DNA from: a virus
Length of the DNA stretch: 27,090 nt
Strand: one strand, 5' to 3'
Virus record (IMG/VR): IMGVR_UViG_3300031877_000009
Coordinates: 1 to 27,090 of that record
The notes below the pieces were generated by a model. It saw nothing but the letters and a program-made list of their open reading frames with translations. It searched no databases and was not told the origin of the DNA. A program made the translations under genes and the position numbers. Below are positions 8,112 to 27,034 of the stretch, in pieces (within the stretch, counting starts at the first letter, position 1; each line of letters starts with the position of its first letter).

Positions 8112-10055
8112 TTACCTCTCCAATGTTGAACTGAAAGCTATAAACAAAAATGAAGATGCACTTTCCGCTACAAAATAGAAGATTTCAATCGGTGTTTTAC
8201 TTTGATAGGCATTTGCCACATGCATAGGAAAGAAAACCTCTGAATATGATAAAGCTTCAGAATCATGGTAAACTTCTTGAAAACGTGAATCATAACCATT
8301 TGCTCTCCTCAATAAAACTGGTCTGTAATCTGTCTGATGACGTTCCATAGTTTGGACAATACCATCCTTAATAAAAAATTCTGGAAAAGCATAGGCATGA
8401 AAAGTTAAGACGTTTTTAGCCATATCTGTCATATCGTTGAGAACCCAGAAACCTTTTAAACCCAAAGGACTAGAATATTGTAAAACTTTTACCGTCATCG
8501 TTGGGTCATTCCAATTGACCTGTTTTTTGGCACTTAACAATGGTCTATTTAATTCATCCAAAACGGGCGTCAAACCAATTGTTACAGTTGCACTTGTTGC
8601 AACTAATGTTTGGGCTTCATCCAAGGGAAGCGTGAGAACTGTACCATCTGCCTTTTTCCAGGTTGTTCCTTCGTCATCCGAAAATGCAAAATAGAAGTTT
8701 TCTCTGGCTTCACTTACATATGTGTATTTGCTTCCACCTGTAATCATGTATTTGCCCTGCTTTAATGTGGTAAAATATGGGAATATGCCTGCTCCGAAAT
8801 TTATGAAATCAATCCAACCCGTCCAAGTTGTGCCGTTCACTGTTGTATTTTTCATCCAACGAGTTTGGCTACTACTAACTGAATCTCTCGCAACCAGCAC
8901 AAGTTTGTCAGCAAAGCTTGAAACTTGAGGATATGTCCAACCCATATTTATTACGGGAAGATTTAACTGTTCCCCCCATGATGATTCATCCCCGGCATTT
9001 TGCGAAATCTTGTAATATATAGGTTCATCTGAATGGCAACCATAAAAAACGATTAGTTTACCATTTGGAAGAATTCCTATGCTTGGGGGCGTATCTGCAT
9101 CCGTGAGGTGAGGTGAATCTGCAACTTTGTAACTTGAACCCCACGATTCTGTCATGTGATTATAGGCTTTAATATAAATGTCTTGTGCATTATCTTCCCA
9201 AACAAAATAAGTTTTTAGATAGGTTTGACGATAGATTGCGGAAGGATAATTTCTTTGTTGTAATCGACCTGAAAGTGAACCAGAATAACTGAAAATTGTT
9301 GTTTTCATGAAGACAAAATCTGTTCCTTTTGGTGTTCGTTCAAGGTCTTTGTCAAGTGCATAAATGTGTTGAATACCTTGATACTCTTCTATAACCATGA
9401 CATTACTTGATAAGAAAACTCCCGAAGGCAATTGAAAGCCTTTGAGGTAAATGATTCCACCAGTGTCATCAACAACATTCTCTACATCTTGAACAACAGT
9501 CGTTTCATTGGTTCCAGAATAGTCTATGGCTCCAGTTGCGCCATTTCGTGCATAATAGGTTGAATCCTTTTTATAAATAATGTAGTTTGTACATACATGT
9601 CCAATACCTTCAGCAAGTTTACTTGAAGTCACATTTAAATCAGTTATTTTCGCTGTAGTAACTGCGTTGTCTACAAGTTCTGCTGTGTTCACTGAATTAT
9701 CAGCCATTTTAGCATTAGTCACCGCATTGTCTACAAGTTCTGCTGTGTTCACGCTGTTATCTGCCATTTTAGCGTTAGTTACTGCATTGTCTTGGATGGC
9801 TGCTGTGTCAACTGCGTTATCAGCTAACTCACTAGCGCCCACAGCATTTGGGGCAATATCGACTGCAAGTACAGTGTCAGGTGCAATCTTCTCAGAAGTT
9901 ACAGCGTTGTCAGCAAGCTTCGCCGTCGTAACTGAACCATCAGCTAAACCCGCAGTGGGAATAGCCCCAGATTCAATCTCATGGTCTTCAGCCCAAACAG
10001 CACTAGTTTTAATATTGGTTCCCGCAGCCCTAGTTTTATGTTTAATTCCAGCCAT
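8112..10055 (-). CDS. Receptor-binding tail fibre with beta-repeat stalk and BNR/sialidase-like propeller
   Basis: This is the longest protein of the window, 647 residues. Residues about 35-155 are tandem units of the NAVTNAKMADNSVNTAELVD type, a trimeric fibre stalk encoded by 60-bp repeats. Residues about 160-225 form an adaptor (IIYKKDSTYYARNGATG and IDYSGTN) shared with the fibre encoded at 10463. The rest is strand-rich with an Asp-box, SDDEGTTW, near residue 459, and several blade-like stretches, as in BNR-repeat or sialidase propellers. It probably binds or cleaves host surface glycan. The sialidase catalytic arginine triad cannot be confirmed by eye. The start has AAGAAGGT upstream. 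Confidence 0.75.
   Translation of the reverse strand: MAGIKHKTRAAGTNIKTSAVWAEDHEIESGAIPTAGLADGSVTTAKLADNAVTSEKIAPDTVLAVDIAPNAVGASELADNAVDTAAIQDNAVTNAKMADNSVNTAELVDNAVTNAKMADNSVNTAELVDNAVTTAKITDLNVTSSKLAEGIGHVCTNYIIYKKDSTYYARNGATGAIDYSGTNETTVVQDVENVVDDTGGIIYLKGFQLPSGVFLSSNVMVIEEYQGIQHIYALDKDLERTPKGTDFVFMKTTIFSYSGSLSGRLQQRNYPSAIYRQTYLKTYFVWEDNAQDIYIKAYNHMTESWGSSYKVADSPHLTDADTPPSIGILPNGKLIVFYGCHSDEPIYYKISQNAGDESSWGEQLNLPVINMGWTYPQVSSFADKLVLVARDSVSSSQTRWMKNTTVNGTTWTGWIDFINFGAGIFPYFTTLKQGKYMITGGSKYTYVSEARENFYFAFSDDEGTTWKKADGTVLTLPLDEAQTLVATSATVTIGLTPVLDELNRPLLSAKKQVNWNDPTMTVKVLQYSSPLGLKGFWVLNDMTDMAKNVLTFHAYAFPEFFIKDGIVQTMERHQTDYRPVLLRRANGYDSRFQEVYHDSEALSYSEVFFPMHVANAYQSKTPIEIFYFVAESASSFLFIAFSSTLER
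9601..9960 (-). repeat. 60-bp-period tandem repeats in the fibre stalk
   Basis: The sequence keeps an exact 60-base period: 9661-9720 and 9721-9780 are nearly identical, and 9781-9840, 9841-9900 and 9901-9960 are diverged copies. Each unit encodes 20 residues made of two roughly 10-residue turns ending in -DNAV or -DNSV. The two near-identical copies indicate a recent duplication or gene-conversion event. The number of units would set the stalk length. Confidence 0.8.
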
Positions 10056-10059
10056 ATGG

Positions 10060-10419
10060 TTAAACCTTCTTTAATGTTCTTTTCATGTCTTGCCAAATAT
10101 CCGAGTAAACATCTAAGCGAGCATCATCGCCAACGCTGTCAACGATGCAGTCAACATCGCCATCAACGAGGATGCGAGGATAAGGTGTTGGAATATTTTT
10201 TTGGCGTTTCAATTGTTGCCAATGATCAGTGTAAACATCTACCCGTGCTTCATCTCCTACGCTATCAACGATGCAGTCGATGACACCGTCCACGGGGATA
10301 GGTGGATACACTATCGAGATGTTTTTTAATCGTTTAAGAACAATGCTCCATTCGCCAACACTAATAATGTCCCAATTGCATCTGTCCCATCGACCTATAT
10401 CCCAACGAGCAACATCCAT
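10060..10419 (-). CDS. Hypothetical protein with two internal repeats, 119 aa
   Basis: The protein consists of an N-terminal segment rich in W (ARWDIGRWDRCNWDI) and two copies of a 42-residue unit. Each unit carries DCIVDSVGD-x-AR-x-DVY and then a helix (HWQQLKR / IWQDMKR). The matching DNA segments are 126 bases apart. GGGAGTTT lies just upstream of ATG 10419. It sits between two fibre genes, so a fibre chaperone or a small structural adaptor is possible. Family not recognised. Confidence 0.6.
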   Translation of the reverse strand: MDVARWDIGRWDRCNWDIISVGEWSIVLKRLKNISIVYPPIPVDGVIDCIVDSVGDEARVDVYTDHWQQLKRQKNIPTPYPRILVDGDVDCIVDSVGDDARLDVYSDIWQDMKRTLKKV

Positions 10420-21054: not shown

Positions 21055-21216
21055 ATGAAGTGTGTAATGTCGAAAGTAGAATGCAAGAAGTGTCAGCATT
21101 ATGGTGATTGCCAGATTCTAAATGACTTTTATGTTATGCAACATGAACTTAAGTCATTCATTAAGAAGGTTGAAGATGTCAGATTAATAGCTCAGTCCAT
21201 AGCTTCTAAGCGTTGA
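21055..21216 (+). CDS. Possible plus-strand cysteine-rich protein, 53 aa
   Basis: ATG 21055 follows GATGATC at 21045-21051, close to the archaeal ribosome-binding consensus, and the frame runs to TGA 21214-21216. It reads VMSKVECKKCQHYGDCQILN, a CX2CX5C arrangement, followed by an amphipathic helix (HELKSFIKKVEDVRLIAQS). It is the only apparent plus-strand gene inside the right minus-strand block and overlaps the methyltransferase 3' end by 25 bases. It may be a small metal-binding regulator. Moderate support. Confidence 0.45.
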   Translation: MKCVMSKVECKKCQHYGDCQILNDFYVMQHELKSFIKKVEDVRLIAQSIASKR

Positions 21217-22010
21217 CCGATGAAGAAGACTCGATGGCGCTTCTGCCTTATCCCTATTTCTTCACCCTTAACTATCTTTACTTCAACGATATATCCTTCG
21301 TTTTGCATGTCTTCTAAGATTTGTTGTTTAAAGTCTAAGATGCCCATGACGTTTTCCATTACGAAGTATTGAGGCTTTAGTTCACTGATTATTCGCATGA
21401 ATTGCTTATAGAGAACGTTTCTTGGGTCATCTTTAAATCGTAGTCCAGCAAGGCTAAAGCCTTGACATGGTGGACCGCCAATAACTAAGTTAATGTTTTC
21501 TTTTACGTGTTCTTGAATGTCTTGTTTAGTTAGTTTATGGATGTCTTTTAGAATGAAGGGAATTTGAGGGAAGTTTGCTTTATGCGTATATGCACAATAG
21601 ATATCCCAGTCAGTTGAAAGCACAATGTTATGTCTCACGTTTGAAAAGCCTAAATCCATTCCACCGCATCCAGAAAAAAGACTTAAAGCATTCGACTGTG
21701 GAATCATTTTGGCAACATGCTCAGCCATTTTAACATCTATAGCATTACCAATTTGTTGTTTAATGGTTTTCCTTGTCCCAACGAATTTAAACGTATCTGG
21801 GAAATCTTGAATCCGTGCATATTCTCTTAAGCTAAATTCTCTTCCATCAGAATGAAAGAACCATCCTTCTACTGTAAGAGTAGGATAAGATGATTCGTCA
21901 TAAATGATTTGATGTTCTGCGTCTCCTCGATTTTTCCTTGCTTCAGGTTTATTTGATACTACATACATGTTTTCTCCAATGGGAGTTATTGGTCTAAAGG
22001 GTAAAAGCAT
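21192..22010 (-). CDS. Circularly permuted C5-cytosine DNA methyltransferase
   Basis: The protein has 272 residues. Motifs are in permuted order. Motif IX-X comes first (REFSLREYARIQDFPDTFKF at 57-76, then IKQQIGNAI at 83-91). Motif I follows (LSLFSGCGGMDLGF, 109-122), then IV with catalytic C182 (GGPPCQGFS), V (DPRN), VI (VMENV, 217-221) and VIII (RQKRHRVFFIG, 255-265). The protein ends 7 residues after motif VIII and only about 40 residues precede motif IX, so a target-recognition domain is not evident. ATG 21968 is an alternative start with GGAG upstream. It probably methylates viral DNA against host restriction. Confidence 0.85.
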   Translation of the reverse strand: MLLPFRPITPIGENMYVVSNKPEARKNRGDAEHQIIYDESSYPTLTVEGWFFHSDGREFSLREYARIQDFPDTFKFVGTRKTIKQQIGNAIDVKMAEHVAKMIPQSNALSLFSGCGGMDLGFSNVRHNIVLSTDWDIYCAYTHKANFPQIPFILKDIHKLTKQDIQEHVKENINLVIGGPPCQGFSLAGLRFKDDPRNVLYKQFMRIISELKPQYFVMENVMGILDFKQQILEDMQNEGYIVEVKIVKGEEIGIRQKRHRVFFIGQRLEAMD

Positions 22011-22022
22011 TAATGAAGATGG

Positions 22023-22475
22023 CTATCCTTGTCTAACTCTTGCAATGGCTAAATTAGGATTCTGCTCAATTTCTAAGTAAGCCTTTAAGGTTTCATCATG
22101 TATTAAGAGTAGGTCTTTAAGGTCTTGTTCTTTGCCAGCAGCTATGATTTTATCAAATTCGTAAGCATCTTGTAGTAGTTCATGTTCGCCTCGCAGTTTA
22201 TTTAGGACTTGTCTTAGCAGTCTGCGGTCAACGTCTTCTACGGGTAAGCGTATGACTGAAACTTGATTCATGCCTAATGACTTAGCTACTTCCCATCTTT
22301 GCTCGCCGTCTGCTATCAATAAGTCTTTGTTCGTGATGATGGGCACGATGAAGCCGTAGCGTTTTATTGATTCGCTGAGGGCTTTGTGCTGTTGCTGTGT
22401 CATGCGGTTTGGGTTGTTGCCATCTACCTTTAATTCGTTGACGTTTACGAGTTCAGATGGTGGGATTTCAACCAT
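22023..22475 (-). CDS. ParB-like nuclease-domain protein, 150 aa
   Basis: The protein has 150 residues with the ParB N-terminal fold: VNVNELKVDGNNPNRMTQQQHKALSESI, then FIVPIITNKDLLIADGEQRWEVAKSLGMNQVSVIRL. The DGEQRW motif forms the CTP/phosphate pocket of the superfamily. No DNA-binding HTH follows; the rest is helical. Viral ParB-like proteins adjacent to a DNA methyltransferase and terminase are common, and may act in DNA modification or nicking. Its stop lies 12 bases before the methyltransferase start. Confidence 0.75.
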   Translation of the reverse strand: MVEIPPSELVNVNELKVDGNNPNRMTQQQHKALSESIKRYGFIVPIITNKDLLIADGEQRWEVAKSLGMNQVSVIRLPVEDVDRRLLRQVLNKLRGEHELLQDAYEFDKIIAAGKEQDLKDLLLIHDETLKAYLEIEQNPNLAIARVRQG

Positions 22476-23326: not shown

Positions 23327-23842
23327 TTACTTCACCACTACTTGTTGTTGTATTGGTCGCCTATCAAGTTCATTTTGCAAAGCTTTAACTTCTCCTTCAT
23401 AATATAATTTTAATTGCTCAAGGTCTTGTTGAGAAGGAGAATTAGCAAGTTGGGTTTCAAGACTTACGATTTTTTCGTCTTTAGTTTTAAGTAAATTATC
23501 TTTGGCTTCTATAGTTTTGTTTAAGTTTTGAATTTGCTCTGTAGCGTAGTTTTGAGTACTGTTGACTAAATTTTCTGCTTTTTGTACTTGTTGTTCAGCT
23601 TGGGTTAATTGTTGTTTAGTTTGAGTTAGTTTGCTCCATAATTTACCTATAACCACGCTTATAGAGGCAATTGCGCCTCCGATGGAAGCTAACACCTGCA
23701 TGGGTAATTGACTAATTTCTGTTATACTATCTTGAAGATATGTTGGAATATTCATGATGCTAAATGTTGGAAATAAGAAGACTATAGCTGCGCCTATGCC
23801 AACGAAAATTAAGAATACAACAATAGCTTTCTTTTTGCTCAT
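23327..23842 (-). CDS. Membrane-anchored coiled-coil protein, 171 aa
   Basis: Residues 1-26 form a membrane segment (AIVVFLIFVGIGAAIVFLF). Residues about 45-68 form a second hydrophobic stretch (LPMQVLASIGGAIASISVVIG). Residues 70-160 are a long Q/K/E heptad coiled coil (LTQTKQQLTQAEQQVQKAEN, ETQLANSPSQQDLEQLKLYY). It overlaps the upstream gene by ATGA. It is the last sizeable member of the GTPase-like cassette, and could anchor or oligomerise that complex at the membrane. Family not recognised. Confidence 0.65.
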   Translation of the reverse strand: MSKKKAIVVFLIFVGIGAAIVFLFPTFSIMNIPTYLQDSITEISQLPMQVLASIGGAIASISVVIGKLWSKLTQTKQQLTQAEQQVQKAENLVNSTQNYATEQIQNLNKTIEAKDNLLKTKDEKIVSLETQLANSPSQQDLEQLKLYYEGEVKALQNELDRRPIQQQVVVK

Positions 23843-24210
23843 ATTTTCACTTCAGCTAAAGGTTTCTTCAATTCAAGATTATTGGCTTGATGCCAACGCA
23901 TAATGCCTATTAAATCCAAAGTATTATTGAGAATTTGGAGTATCCGCTCTACATCAGAAGCGTCAAATTTCACAATAATTGTGTCATTGTCATGTACTGT
24001 TCTGCCACTACTATCTTGATTATTTGTGATGACTGTGCGAGCTATTGCCATATCATTAGGGAAAAAGTTTTCGTATTCGCCAACTTCTTCTTTACTTAAG
24101 TTCCACACAAGCGCAAGATTGTTAGGATTTAAAAGGTTCTCTACGCCTTCTGTTTGGTAATGTTCAAGACGGTCATTGACAAGTTTGTTTATGAATCTGC
24201 CTGTCTGCAT
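23839..24210 (-). CDS. Soluble protein of the GTPase-like cassette, 123 aa
   Basis: The protein has 123 residues, soluble and mixed alpha/beta: FINKLVNDRLEHYQTEGVENLL, MAIARTVITNNQDSSG, DTIIVKFDASDVERILQILNNTLDLIG. No membrane segment or known motif is seen. It starts 2 bases after the NTPase stop and overlaps the coiled-coil gene by ATGA, so it is very likely co-produced with them and may be a partner or regulator of the NTPase. Confidence 0.6.
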   Translation of the reverse strand: MQTGRFINKLVNDRLEHYQTEGVENLLNPNNLALVWNLSKEEVGEYENFFPNDMAIARTVITNNQDSSGRTVHDNDTIIVKFDASDVERILQILNNTLDLIGIMRWHQANNLELKKPLAEVKI

Positions 24211-24212
24211 TG

Positions 24213-25331
24213 TTAAGCAGCCACAGCTAATTTCATTAAGTCATTCAGCAGATTGTCAAACTGTAATTCGCTATAACTGATTTTTCTTGCGTTCTGCCAC
24301 CATTCACCTTGCGGGTCAAAAACATCTTTTGTCATGACCTTCGGTGTGTCTTCAAATCCAAGGTCTGTACTCACTATTTCGTTGCCTTGATCATCAGTTT
24401 CTACTTGAAAGAATGTTGGATAATATCTCACTATTGGAACTCTAAGGCTTTGGATGGCAGCATATGTAGCTGGGAAACATGCTGAAACGAAATGTTCAAT
24501 TTCACTTTGCCCAATATAAGGATCAAGTAAGTCAAATCCAACTCTTTCAGCTACTCTTTTCAGTTTATCCCATGCAGAAATAACCACATATACAGCTTTG
24601 ATTTTATGGCTTGAATGTGTAGCTTTATAAGTCATTAAATCTTCAAGCATACGAACAATATTAACATCTGGGTCACGACTCAAAGTTTTGTCCTTTTCAT
24701 TTTCTAATTGAACGCCTAAGCCCTTCGCTAAAGACGCTTTAAGAATCACTATGTAGGCATCACATTCTCGCATATCATTAATTGCGCATTGGATGGTTCG
24801 GCGAATAATAGTACCTTGTGGGCCTGTTTGCGCTCTTACTTGCCAAATGACTTGACTGAGGGTTTCTCCTGGTAAATCACAGATGGGCAACTGTAACATT
24901 TTATGCCAAAGTTGTTTTCGAGGACGCACATCTCTTCCGACTAATCGCCCAACCAAAGGAATAGAAGTGGCAATAAATTTTTTCTGTTCAAAAAGTAAGC
25001 CAGGGCTACTTCTGAATCCTAAATAATTCTGGGTTTTAGCTGGGAAATGCCCATCTCGCAAATTGCTTACATCTTGGTGAATGTCGCTTCCATGTTCTAA
25101 GACACGAAAATAAAAGGGTTCATCTGTATGTGTCGTTGTAGCGACTTTGTGTTCTGCACGCATAACTAAGCCAGCAACGGTTACGGTTTTGCCAACGTTT
25201 GGTGGACCCATGAGAGCTACTCGATTGCCATAGGGGAAAGCTGATACTGCTGGTGCTGTTTCTTGTTCACGGCTTGGAAAATTAATGTTTAATGCAGTGA
25301 GTAAATCTTCAATGCTTGTGGTGGTGCTCAT
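24213..25331 (-). CDS. P-loop G-domain NTPase (TRAFAC / DO-GTPase-like), 372 aa
   Basis: ATG 25331 is chosen because it overlaps the upstream stop as ATGA; the open frame continues to 25589 but that stretch is low-complexity shadow of the upstream gene. The G1 motif GPPNVGKT (42-49) is followed by a switch-I-like GHFPAKT (T100). Next come G3 DLPGE (152-156), a strand AYIVILKAS and a G4-like SAWDKL (252-257), with a C-terminal helical part. The DxPGE signature and the W-free TKxD-like G4 fit a diverged GTPase, possibly of the DO-GTPase type found in prokaryotic conflict systems; that assignment is inference. Neighbours are membrane and coiled-coil proteins. Confidence 0.7.
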   Translation of the reverse strand: MSTTTSIEDLLTALNINFPSREQETAPAVSAFPYGNRVALMGPPNVGKTVTVAGLVMRAEHKVATTTHTDEPFYFRVLEHGSDIHQDVSNLRDGHFPAKTQNYLGFRSSPGLLFEQKKFIATSIPLVGRLVGRDVRPRKQLWHKMLQLPICDLPGETLSQVIWQVRAQTGPQGTIIRRTIQCAINDMRECDAYIVILKASLAKGLGVQLENEKDKTLSRDPDVNIVRMLEDLMTYKATHSSHKIKAVYVVISAWDKLKRVAERVGFDLLDPYIGQSEIEHFVSACFPATYAAIQSLRVPIVRYYPTFFQVETDDQGNEIVSTDLGFEDTPKVMTKDVFDPQGEWWQNARKISYSELQFDNLLNDLMKLAVAA

Positions 25332-25735
25332 GAAGTGGTTTGAGTCTCCTCTTTTTTCACTTCTTCTATTATAGGTTGAACTACAGTTGGTGTTGGTTGT
25401 GGCTGTGGCTGAAGTGAAGGCTGTTGAAGTTGACTTTGAAGGGGTTGTGTTTGAGGTAGTACAGTAACTTTTTTCTTGAAGAGATAGCCCCGTTGAGTTA
25501 TCATTATTACAACAAGCAATATTATTGCACTGCTGAGAAATACTTGAGGTACTAGAAGCCAGTTTGCAAATGAGGTGATGTTTAACCAAACAAAGGCAAT
25601 TCCAGAAAGAAACAGCTCTGCAACTGCAGGCACGAAATAGGCAATTGTAACAATCATGCCTACAATAAAGGCAAAGATTAAAACCAAGACAAACTTTAGA
25701 GGTATCGCTTTCCTTGTTTTGATAGTATATGCCAT
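25328..25735 (-). CDS. Two-span membrane protein with Q/P-rich tail, 135 aa
   Basis: ATG 25735 is preferred because GGGGGTGAT lies 7-8 bases before it; the frame extends three codons to a TTG. Residues about 12-35 (PLKFVLVLIFAFIVGMIVTIAYFV) and 38-75 (ELFLSGIAFVWLNITSFANW, LLVPQVFLSSAIILLVVIMI) are hydrophobic, probably two or three helices. The remainder is a Q/P-rich cytoplasmic or external tail (TQPLQSQLQQPSLQPQPQPT) ending EEVKKEETQ. It overlaps the NTPase gene by ATGA. It may anchor the NTPase. Confidence 0.65.
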   Translation of the reverse strand: MAYTIKTRKAIPLKFVLVLIFAFIVGMIVTIAYFVPAVAELFLSGIAFVWLNITSFANWLLVPQVFLSSAIILLVVIMITQRGYLFKKKVTVLPQTQPLQSQLQQPSLQPQPQPTPTVVQPIIEEVKKEETQTTS

Positions 25736-25744
25736 TCTACACAA

Positions 25745-26050
25745 TCACCCCCTTACAATTGGATTTTGCAACGTACCTCTTCCACGTTTATCCGTTAAAA
25801 TTTCACCTTTCACAACAGGTTCCTCTAATGGTACAGCTTTAACTTCATAGCCAACCCTTACTTCATGAACAAGTATGCGACTTGAGTTTTCTAGGCTGAT
25901 GCTTTCTGCTTGTTCATCATCATAAAAACTTAAAATGTGTAAGAAACGCTTAAGACGTTCACGTTTTTTTTCTTTACTTCTTTTTCCTCGATGTAGTATA
26001 CCCAGAAACCGCACACACCTTTTTGGGTAGGTAGGCAAGTTAGTTAACAT
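25745..26050 (-). CDS. Basic soluble protein heading the cassette, 101 aa
   Basis: The 101-residue protein has a strongly basic first half (RGKRSKEKKRERLKRFLHIL) and a beta-rich second half (SRILVHEVRVGYEVKAVPLEEPVVKGEIL). No ribosome-binding site is seen before ATG 26050, so its mRNA may be leaderless; it is the first gene of the minus-strand block. The GTG at 26014 is an alternative start. Family unknown. Confidence 0.5.
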   Translation of the reverse strand: MLTNLPTYPKRCVRFLGILHRGKRSKEKKRERLKRFLHILSFYDDEQAESISLENSSRILVHEVRVGYEVKAVPLEEPVVKGEILTDKRGRGTLQNPIVRG

Positions 26051-26141
26051 ACTTTCATGCTAACTAAATTGTCTTATTCGTAAGAAGGCATATATAAGAT
26101 TAACGACATTTTAGTGGTTTAGTCTAGGCTATTTAGCTTCG

Positions 26142-26179
26142 TTTTATATGACTATTTTTGACCTATCCATTTTATATGA
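26142..26179. promoter_or_regulatory. Two copies of a TATA-box-like decamer
   Basis: TTTTATATGA occurs at 26142-26151 and again at 26170-26179, exactly 28 bases apart. It matches the archaeal TATA box (TTTATATA) in either orientation. These could drive the minus-strand cassette, whose first start is 91 bases away, and/or a plus-strand transcript through 26200-26500. Confidence 0.45.
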
Positions 26180-26204
26180 TAAATTTTAAATTCTAAAAGC
26201 GAAT

Positions 26205-26430
26205 AATAGTTGAGTTGCCTACCGAGACACAAAGCTTGCAACTATGATACTGTTGGAATTATTGTTCAGTGACTTCATGATTGGTTGGGTTGGGCGGTCT
26301 CGGCAACCCTTCCGTCCATAAAAAGCTTTATCGAAAAAGTTTTAAAGTTAAACGAACTAATAAATATCGCCTTCGTAAAATCTCCCTTTGGTAAGGAGAA
26401 ATGCGGGATACCAGCCCACAACCAAAGCAT
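26205..26430. other. Hairpin-rich segment, possible non-coding RNA
   Basis: The segment is clearly richer in G and C than its flanks and holds several inverted repeats. These are ATAGTTG...CAACTAT (about 26208-26244), GGGTTG...CAACCC (26287-26309), GGGCGG...CCGTCC (26292-26317, with one G-U pair), TCTCC...GGAGA (26381-26399) and CTTTGGT...ACCAAAG (26386-26427) enclosing GGG...CCC. No known RNA family was recognised. A 78-codon plus-strand frame (26285-26521, TTG start) crosses it and is not called. Confidence 0.35.
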
Positions 26431-26569
26431 CCAAGATACCTTAAAAGGGTCACTTGGAAAAAAGGCTGAGGGTAAAGCGATGCACAACTCATTATGTTAT
26501 ACTGTGTCATGCTCAGTTTAGTTCTACCAAACAACCATTATGAATAGTTAATAATTTTGGAGGTTAGAT

Positions 26570-26623
26570 ATGGTAGAGAGGAGAGTATTAGTATTAGTTT
26601 TATATTTATGTAATGTAATGTAA
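26570..26623 (+). CDS. Possible leader peptide, 17 codons
   Basis: GGAGGTTAG lies 5 bases before ATG 26570, one of the best ribosome-binding sites on the plus strand. The frame encodes MVERRVLVLVLYLCNVM and stops at TAA 26621-26623 inside the pentanucleotide repeat. It is in the same frame as the downstream regulator gene. A leader peptide or a truncated older start are both possible. Confidence 0.35.
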   Translation: MVERRVLVLVLYLCNVM

Positions 26624-26630
26624 TGTAACG
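26585..26630 (+). repeat. GTATTA and TAATG short tandem repeats before the regulator gene
   Basis: GTATTA occurs twice at 26585-26596, followed by TTTTATATTTATG, TATA-like, at 26598-26610. TAATG is then repeated three times at 26611-26625, preceded by TTATG and followed by TAACG. Copy-number change of a 5-bp unit alters reading frame or promoter spacing. Confidence 0.6.
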
Positions 26631-26680
26631 TGGTGTTCTTCTTGGTGCGTCCAAAAAAATTTAGAAACGGCTTCACAACC

Positions 26681-27034
26681 ATGACATTAATGCGAATCAA
26701 TGATTGTAAACAAGTCTATGAGCAGGCTGAGGAGCTTGCGAAAAGAGAGAAGGTTAGCTTTAGCGAGTTGGTTGTTAAAGCTTTAGCTGATTATTGTAAA
26801 GTGCATTATCCTGGTCAACCGCAACCGCCTTTACCTCTTTCTTCTAGTTTGATGGATGATTATGTTTTTAGGCGGGTTAAGGCTCGGCTTGAGCATTTGT
26901 TAGGTAAACCTTGGGTTAATCGTGAGGCGTGGTTGTTGGCGGTTGATAATATTGTGTTGAAGTTGAAGGGCGTTAGAGGGCATGATGCTGAGAGAGAACA
27001 GTTGTTGCAATTGACATTAGAGAAGGCAAAGTGA
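26681..27034 (+). CDS. Ribbon-helix-helix-like regulator, 117 aa
   Basis: ATG 26681 gives MTLMRINDCKQVYEQAEELA, then KREKVSFSELVVKALADYCK: a strand followed by two helices, as in CopG/Arc-type ribbon-helix-helix DNA-binding proteins. A PPLPLSS linker leads to a basic helical C-terminal domain (VFRRVKARLEHLLGKPW, NREAWLLAVDNIVLKLKG). The frame is open to GTG 26630, but those residues look like untranslated leader. It probably regulates the neighbouring divergent cassette or its own operon; the TATA-like element at 26598-26610 would be its promoter. Confidence 0.65.
   Translation: MTLMRINDCKQVYEQAEELAKREKVSFSELVVKALADYCKVHYPGQPQPPLPLSSSLMDDYVFRRVKARLEHLLGKPWVNREAWLLAVDNIVLKLKGVRGHDAEREQLLQLTLEKAK

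Follow-up and report, generated by a model that had tools for sequence, protein, structure and literature searches.

DO-GTPases (Pfam PF19975, DO-GTPase1; Kaur et al. 2020, PMC7159879) have been assigned to predicted systems with which cells respond to invaders. In that study a Walker-B glutamate is the defining feature of the family, and there, as in PMC11237479, these GTPases are repeatedly associated with membranes. GAP1-N1 conflict systems comprise two GTPases together with a full GAP1 protein, GASH and a metallophosphoesterase. No report of DO-GTPases in viruses was found in the literature searched, as far as its accessible text extends. Here, a gene cassette with a DO-GTPase-like protein in its middle was analysed in the virus record IMGVR_UViG_3300031877_000009, the whole of which (27,090 bases) is called the window.

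Genome setting and layout of the cassette

Genes for large terminase (TerL), portal, head protease, major capsid and tail fibre were found on the minus strand of the window. The terminase shared 48% identity with that of Methanothermobacter virus psiM2 across 97% of its length, with Gordonia phages giving comparable scores, and the top match of the portal was the archaeal ANMV-1 virus (E 2e-18); the window is likely to represent a tailed virus of an archaeal host.

Five minus-strand genes had been placed at positions 23327-26050 by the initial annotation, and all five ORFs (A to E, Table 1) were present there, joined by short gaps (9 nt for A-B, 2 nt for C-D) and by overlaps of 4 nt (B-C and D-E), as had been stated. 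The protein types read from the letters also held on inspection: A, called basic and soluble, had a pI of about 10; B, called a multi-span membrane protein with a Q/P tail, had three predicted TM spans and a tail rich in Q/P and K/E; the three motifs named for the NTPase were all located in C; and E, called a membrane-anchored coiled coil, had two hydrophobic spans (residues 6-24 and 50-68) and then a long coiled-coil-like stretch. Two other statements stood in part. The cassette had been regarded as no normal part of a structural operon, which agrees with the absence of C from most of the terminase relatives searched, but it forms the 5' end of a same-strand run into the terminase genes. The five genes had also been taken as one unit; A occurred upstream of terS without C and the other cassette genes in two virus contigs (L047 and L048), so B-C-D-E was treated as the core.

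Table 1. Positions of the cassette genes and of the other features named in the text
Feature	Record	Position	Strand	Description
A	window	25745..26050	-	small basic protein, 101 aa, C-terminal GEILTDKRGRGTLQ motif; first in the run, not cassette-specific
B	window	25328..25735	-	multi-span membrane protein, 135 aa from ATG
C	window	24213..25331	-	DO-GTPase-like GTPase, 372 aa; G1 GPPNVGKT, G3 DLPGE with Walker-B Glu, G4-like SAWDKL
D	window	23839..24210	-	small soluble alpha/beta protein, 123 aa; possible reduced GAP1-N1 domain
E	window	23327..23842	-	171 aa; N-terminal membrane anchor, second hydrophobic span, long coiled coil
Putative archaeal-type TATA box	window	26090..26097	-	TTATATAT, 40-47 nt upstream of A start codon; read from sequence, weak
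Intergenic region	window	26051-26629		roughly 580 bases
Divergent gene	window	26630-27034	+	possibly small DNA-binding regulator
ParB-like protein	window	22023-22475	-	immediately upstream of the methylase
C5-cytosine DNA methylase	window	21192-22010	-	PF00145, 201 bits
Small protein	window	10060-10419	-	internal duplication
Tail-fibre protein	window	8112-10055	-	tail fibre PHROGs
Gene F	L034; L004; L092; L002; L013	8589-9038; 4148-4564; 3081-3491; 2232-2582; 375-791		one TM span and probable beta-rich domain
TerL	L092	4890-6314		
GAP1-type GTPase operon	L102 (Aliivibrio plasmid pVSAL840)	889-10267		adjoins RADAR defence genes

The intergenic region between the cassette and the divergent gene opposite it is likely a regulatory centre; the divergent gene had no Pfam match. 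The putative TATA box had no evident counterpart ahead of A in the relatives, and scans for bacterial sigma-70 promoters and terminators gave no signals above those of shuffles.

Elsewhere in the window, the methylase showed a motif order that looks circularly permuted, with the C-terminal motifs (EFSLREYARIQDFPDTF...KQQIGNAI) first, then motif I (SLFSGCGGMDLGF), GGPPCQGFS, ENV and RHRVFF. The best PHROG of the ParB-like protein was the N-terminal part of a DNA methyltransferase, and a similar ParB-like domain was seen in L048 within a longer protein with DNA-methylase-like motifs. The tail-fibre protein contained repeated NAVTNAKMADNSVNTAELVD-type segments, and the duplicated stretches of the small protein were DCIVDSVGDEARVDVY and DCIVDSVGDDARLDVY.

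The GTPase encoded by gene C

The grouping of C with DO-GTPase-like families, proposed in the initial annotation, gained support from Pfam, from profile-profile comparison with controls and from the Walker-B glutamate. In Pfam, C of the window matched DO-GTPase1 with an E-value of 6.4e-6 and 26.1 bits, short of the gathering cut-off of 27 bits; all five C members tested matched this family at E<=1, the other viral proteins with lower scores than that of the window. C would thus be a distant relative of DO-GTPase1 rather than a formal member.

For comparison, eleven GAP1-N1 operons were collected from plasmids with a GAP1-N1 consensus as the probe, and the matches were checked by annotated GASH and metallophosphoesterase neighbours (in L098 by position only); they yielded two sets of bacterial GTPases. 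One GAP1-type operon, on the Aliivibrio plasmid pVSAL840, had its GASH gene interrupted by an IS30 transposase. With hhalign, the profile of six viral C proteins scored 96.3% and 97.2% against the two GTPase sets and 97.6% against both combined, with E-values from 1e-9 to 2.9e-12, while the controls (GASH, metallophosphoesterase, terminase and GAP1, a set containing no unrelated GTPase family) reached at most 2.1%, the value obtained with a set of 51 TerL sequences. When a single C sequence replaced the family, the scores were 38-92%. Conversely, when 3855 viral ORFs were searched with the HMM of the second bacterial GTPase, C of the window (18.1 bits) and of L002 (16.3 bits) took the top two ranks.

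The glutamate following the G3 glycine ([D/E]xxGE) was present in 6/6 viral C proteins and likewise in the bacterial sets. A structure model of C from L034, of moderate confidence (pLDDT 62.5), gave Ras, Rag and EF-Tu as the top Foldseek matches, with probability up to 1.0. The three viral C alleles shared only 22-28% identity. Searches with C as a single sequence, covering phages and plasmids as well as viral and genome contigs, returned no relatives besides one weak match, an unconvincing partial one to an Arthrobacter phage (E 0.09) from tblastn against 50,697 phage records, and the C profile found similarity at P-loop level only among PDB sequences.

A known packaging or partition ATPase, which the initial annotation had set against its own reading, was ruled out for C, with no such match and none to terminase. 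Because its profile matched DO-GTPases and not terminase, C was taken as a relative of the former; judged by sequence, it is a TRAFAC-type GTPase closest to the bacterial DO-GTPases, and very probably a diverged, virus-borne relative of them.

D, a probable partner protein

D followed C closely wherever it was found, with a 4-nt overlap in four viruses and the 2-nt gap of the window, and it is quite likely that the two proteins form a functional pair. Four of the five D proteins start with MKIERFxYGMxDGK, the YGxxDG motif being absent from D of the window, and bacterial GAP1-N1 domains start with a DQxxxGYxDGH-like stretch at a similar distance from the N terminus. The pattern [FYWH]Gxx[DENS]G[HKR] in the first 28 residues was matched only by the four D proteins among 3855 viral ORFs and only by GAP1 proteins in the plasmid set, for a pattern that was picked after both families had been viewed and for which about 1.3 chance matches would be expected in the N-terminal windows. 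The predicted topology of D, beta-beta-alpha(-alpha)-beta-beta-alpha, is compatible with that read from GAP1-N1 sequences.

The comparison of D with GAP1-N1 by hhalign reached 3.8%, a value below significance and equalled by 4/300 column shuffles. An HMMER search of the viral ORFs for D/GAP1 similarity, with a working positive control, returned nothing, nor did the viral records match GAP1-N1 of Pfam in a search that had no positive control. Structure search with D gave nothing significant, the best matches (E 0.1-0.5) including the GTPase-associated folds LokiRagM and SEDL. The chances that D is a reduced domain of GAP1-N1 origin appear about even.

Recurrence and exchange between virus backbones

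Contigs with related terminases were collected and then searched with C and with the C profile. C was present in five other IMG/VR viruses (L034, L003, L004, L092 and L002), and none of the remaining 50 viral records, many of which are short fragments, was matched by the profile; the distribution of the cassette is patchy. The order A-B-C-D-E, on one strand and upstream of terS-terL, was identical in L034, L003, L004 and L092, with A clearly recognizable in three of them and weakly in L003. The L002 contig starts just before C and retains C, a small zinc-ribbon-like gene and E. Co-occurrence of the genes elsewhere, which the initial annotation had proposed as a check, was therefore seen in four contigs and partly in a fifth, and this recurrence of gene order exceeds chance.

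The junction of D and E varied. In L003 the two genes were separated by about 700 bases, in which two short ORFs lie, and in L004 by 121 bases; L092 carried one additional two-span membrane gene there. Downstream of E, gene F was found in L034, L004, L092 and L002 and was not seen in the window; a relative of F was found in L013, the contig of which begins about where E would end.

A membrane protein stood at the place of B in L034, L003, L004 and L092, and the architecture and position of E were repeated in these four and in L002. Identity of B between viruses was at background (18-24%), except for L003-L004 (61%) and L003/L004-L092 (30-33%). That the B proteins, and likewise the E proteins, of different viruses are homologous rests mainly on order, size and topology and not on sequence. 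The matches of E in PADLOC were rejected as coiled-coil noise.

Identities of terminase and of C/D were discordant. The window shared 79-81% terminase identity with L034 and L002 and only 28% in C, whereas L034 and L092, with unrelated terminases (22%), shared 70% in C and 52% in D. TerL of L092 had only background identity (22-25%) to TerL of the other five cassette viruses. Between L003 and L004, terminase, terS, B, C and D were 61-90% identical, but E only 29%. Because of this discordance, C-D was considered a unit that moves from one virus backbone to another and keeps its site; as read from these identities, C and D are inherited together and independently of terminase, and the sequences of B and E have for the most part diverged to background.

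Possible function

We propose that the cassette represents a viral derivative of the DO-GTPase switch. C would bind GTP and, together with D, which may be a pared-down GAP1-N domain, would toggle between two states at the inner side of the host membrane; this switch would govern B and E, which would alter the state of the membrane or surface once triggered. A membrane-acting, GTP-gated device is the probable nature of the cassette.

The likeliest use of such a device would be to exclude or kill competing genetic elements, that is, superinfection exclusion or viral conflict. This use was preferred because of the predicted role of the family, the patchy distribution and the swapping of alleles, and the putative anti-conflict role in the initial annotation thus has some support from family context. 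It is the most likely of the uses weighed, with egress ranked close behind, and taken alone it stays tentative, at somewhat less than an even chance. The bacterial mechanism could not simply be transferred, since the cassette has one GTPase and lacks GASH, a full GAP1 and any effector domain that could be recognised. A further and slightly more speculative reading is that archaeal viruses took up the core of a cellular conflict switch, a DO-GTPase with a reduced GAP1-N-like partner, and coupled it to fast-evolving membrane proteins, giving a GTP-timed device for exclusion or release, a kind of machine previously undescribed.

The cassette immediately precedes terS/terL and shares their strand, a position that fits egress as well as exclusion, and the lysis genes of lambda and P22 also adjoin the terminase genes, upstream and on the same strand. 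For egress or lysis, the envelope would be opened late by B, with its holin-like architecture, and by E, an anchored coiled coil with spanin-like architecture, with C and D setting the time and supplying the power; in the relatives that have F after E, F would contact the S-layer. At the cassette locus, the cassette-less viruses L006, L008, L010 and L011 (63-69% terL identity) carry small hydrophobic, apparently two-span membrane proteins, which also speaks for this reading. Against it, no holin, endolysin or spanin family was found above noise in the cassette proteins, and we know of no GTPase in any lysis cassette; egress is rather unlikely as the purpose.

Under counter-defence, a DO-GTPase/GAP1 conflict system or an envelope-stress response of the host would be disabled by C and D, acting as decoys or dominant negatives. 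C resembles the core switch of DO-GTPase/GAP1 systems, D may resemble the GAP1 interface, and DO-GTPases occur also in PSP-type envelope-stress operons (PMC11237479). This reading is improbable, as the nucleotide-binding motifs, needless for a decoy, are kept in C, no explanation is given for B and E as membrane genes, and only a few archaea are described as having DO-GTPase systems (PMC7159879). A role of a membrane-linked GTPase in head assembly or packaging, suggested by the strand and gene run shared with terminase and structural genes, is the least probable, because the cassette is missing from most viruses with related terminases and is exchanged independently of terminase, and C has no match to packaging ATPases.

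For the preferred exclusion or conflict use as for egress, the locus may be where uncultured tailed viruses of archaea encode novel functions. With the cassette swappable and its site constant, a testable question also arises, namely what role the GTPase has in a minimal four-gene setting as compared with a multi-effector operon.

Comparison with known systems

As in the GAP1-N1 conflict systems, the GTPase gene of the cassette is followed by a gene the product of which has an N-terminal YGxxDG[HK] (in the viral D homologues) and a compatible topology, and a conserved core is combined with variable other components. The G4 of C in the window is of the SAWDK type, as in the second GTPase of the bacterial GAP1-N1 operons. 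The cassette differs from these systems in having one GTPase in place of two and no full GAP1, GASH or metallophosphoesterase; HMMs of the latter two, built from the plasmid systems, found none among the viral ORFs and detected the positive control.

Phage lysis cassettes such as those of lambda and P22 share with this locus the position by terminase, small membrane proteins and an anchored coiled coil. They differ from it in that the viral cassette has no detectable homology to holin, endolysin or spanin and has a GTPase in its middle. In psiM2/psiM100, viruses of Methanothermobacter, the related TerL is likewise preceded by terS and a series of small genes, but no relative of C was detected in the phage collection containing them.

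Compared with the DO-GTPase family itself, viral C is encoded by viruses in single copy, lacks the N-terminal zinc ribbon and falls 1 bit under the Pfam cut-off. Two paralogous GTPases (38% of DO-GTPase systems) and the zinc ribbon (60%) are common and not universal in the family; the cassettes have one GTPase, and none of their C proteins has the ribbon. The likenesses are a predicted TRAFAC-type G domain with the Walker-B glutamate and membrane proteins encoded nearby. The retention of C-D with varying B and E parallels the pattern of constant core and variable components given for DO-GTPase systems in PMC7159879, and a switch of this kind, so far placed in cellular systems, would now be seen in viruses.
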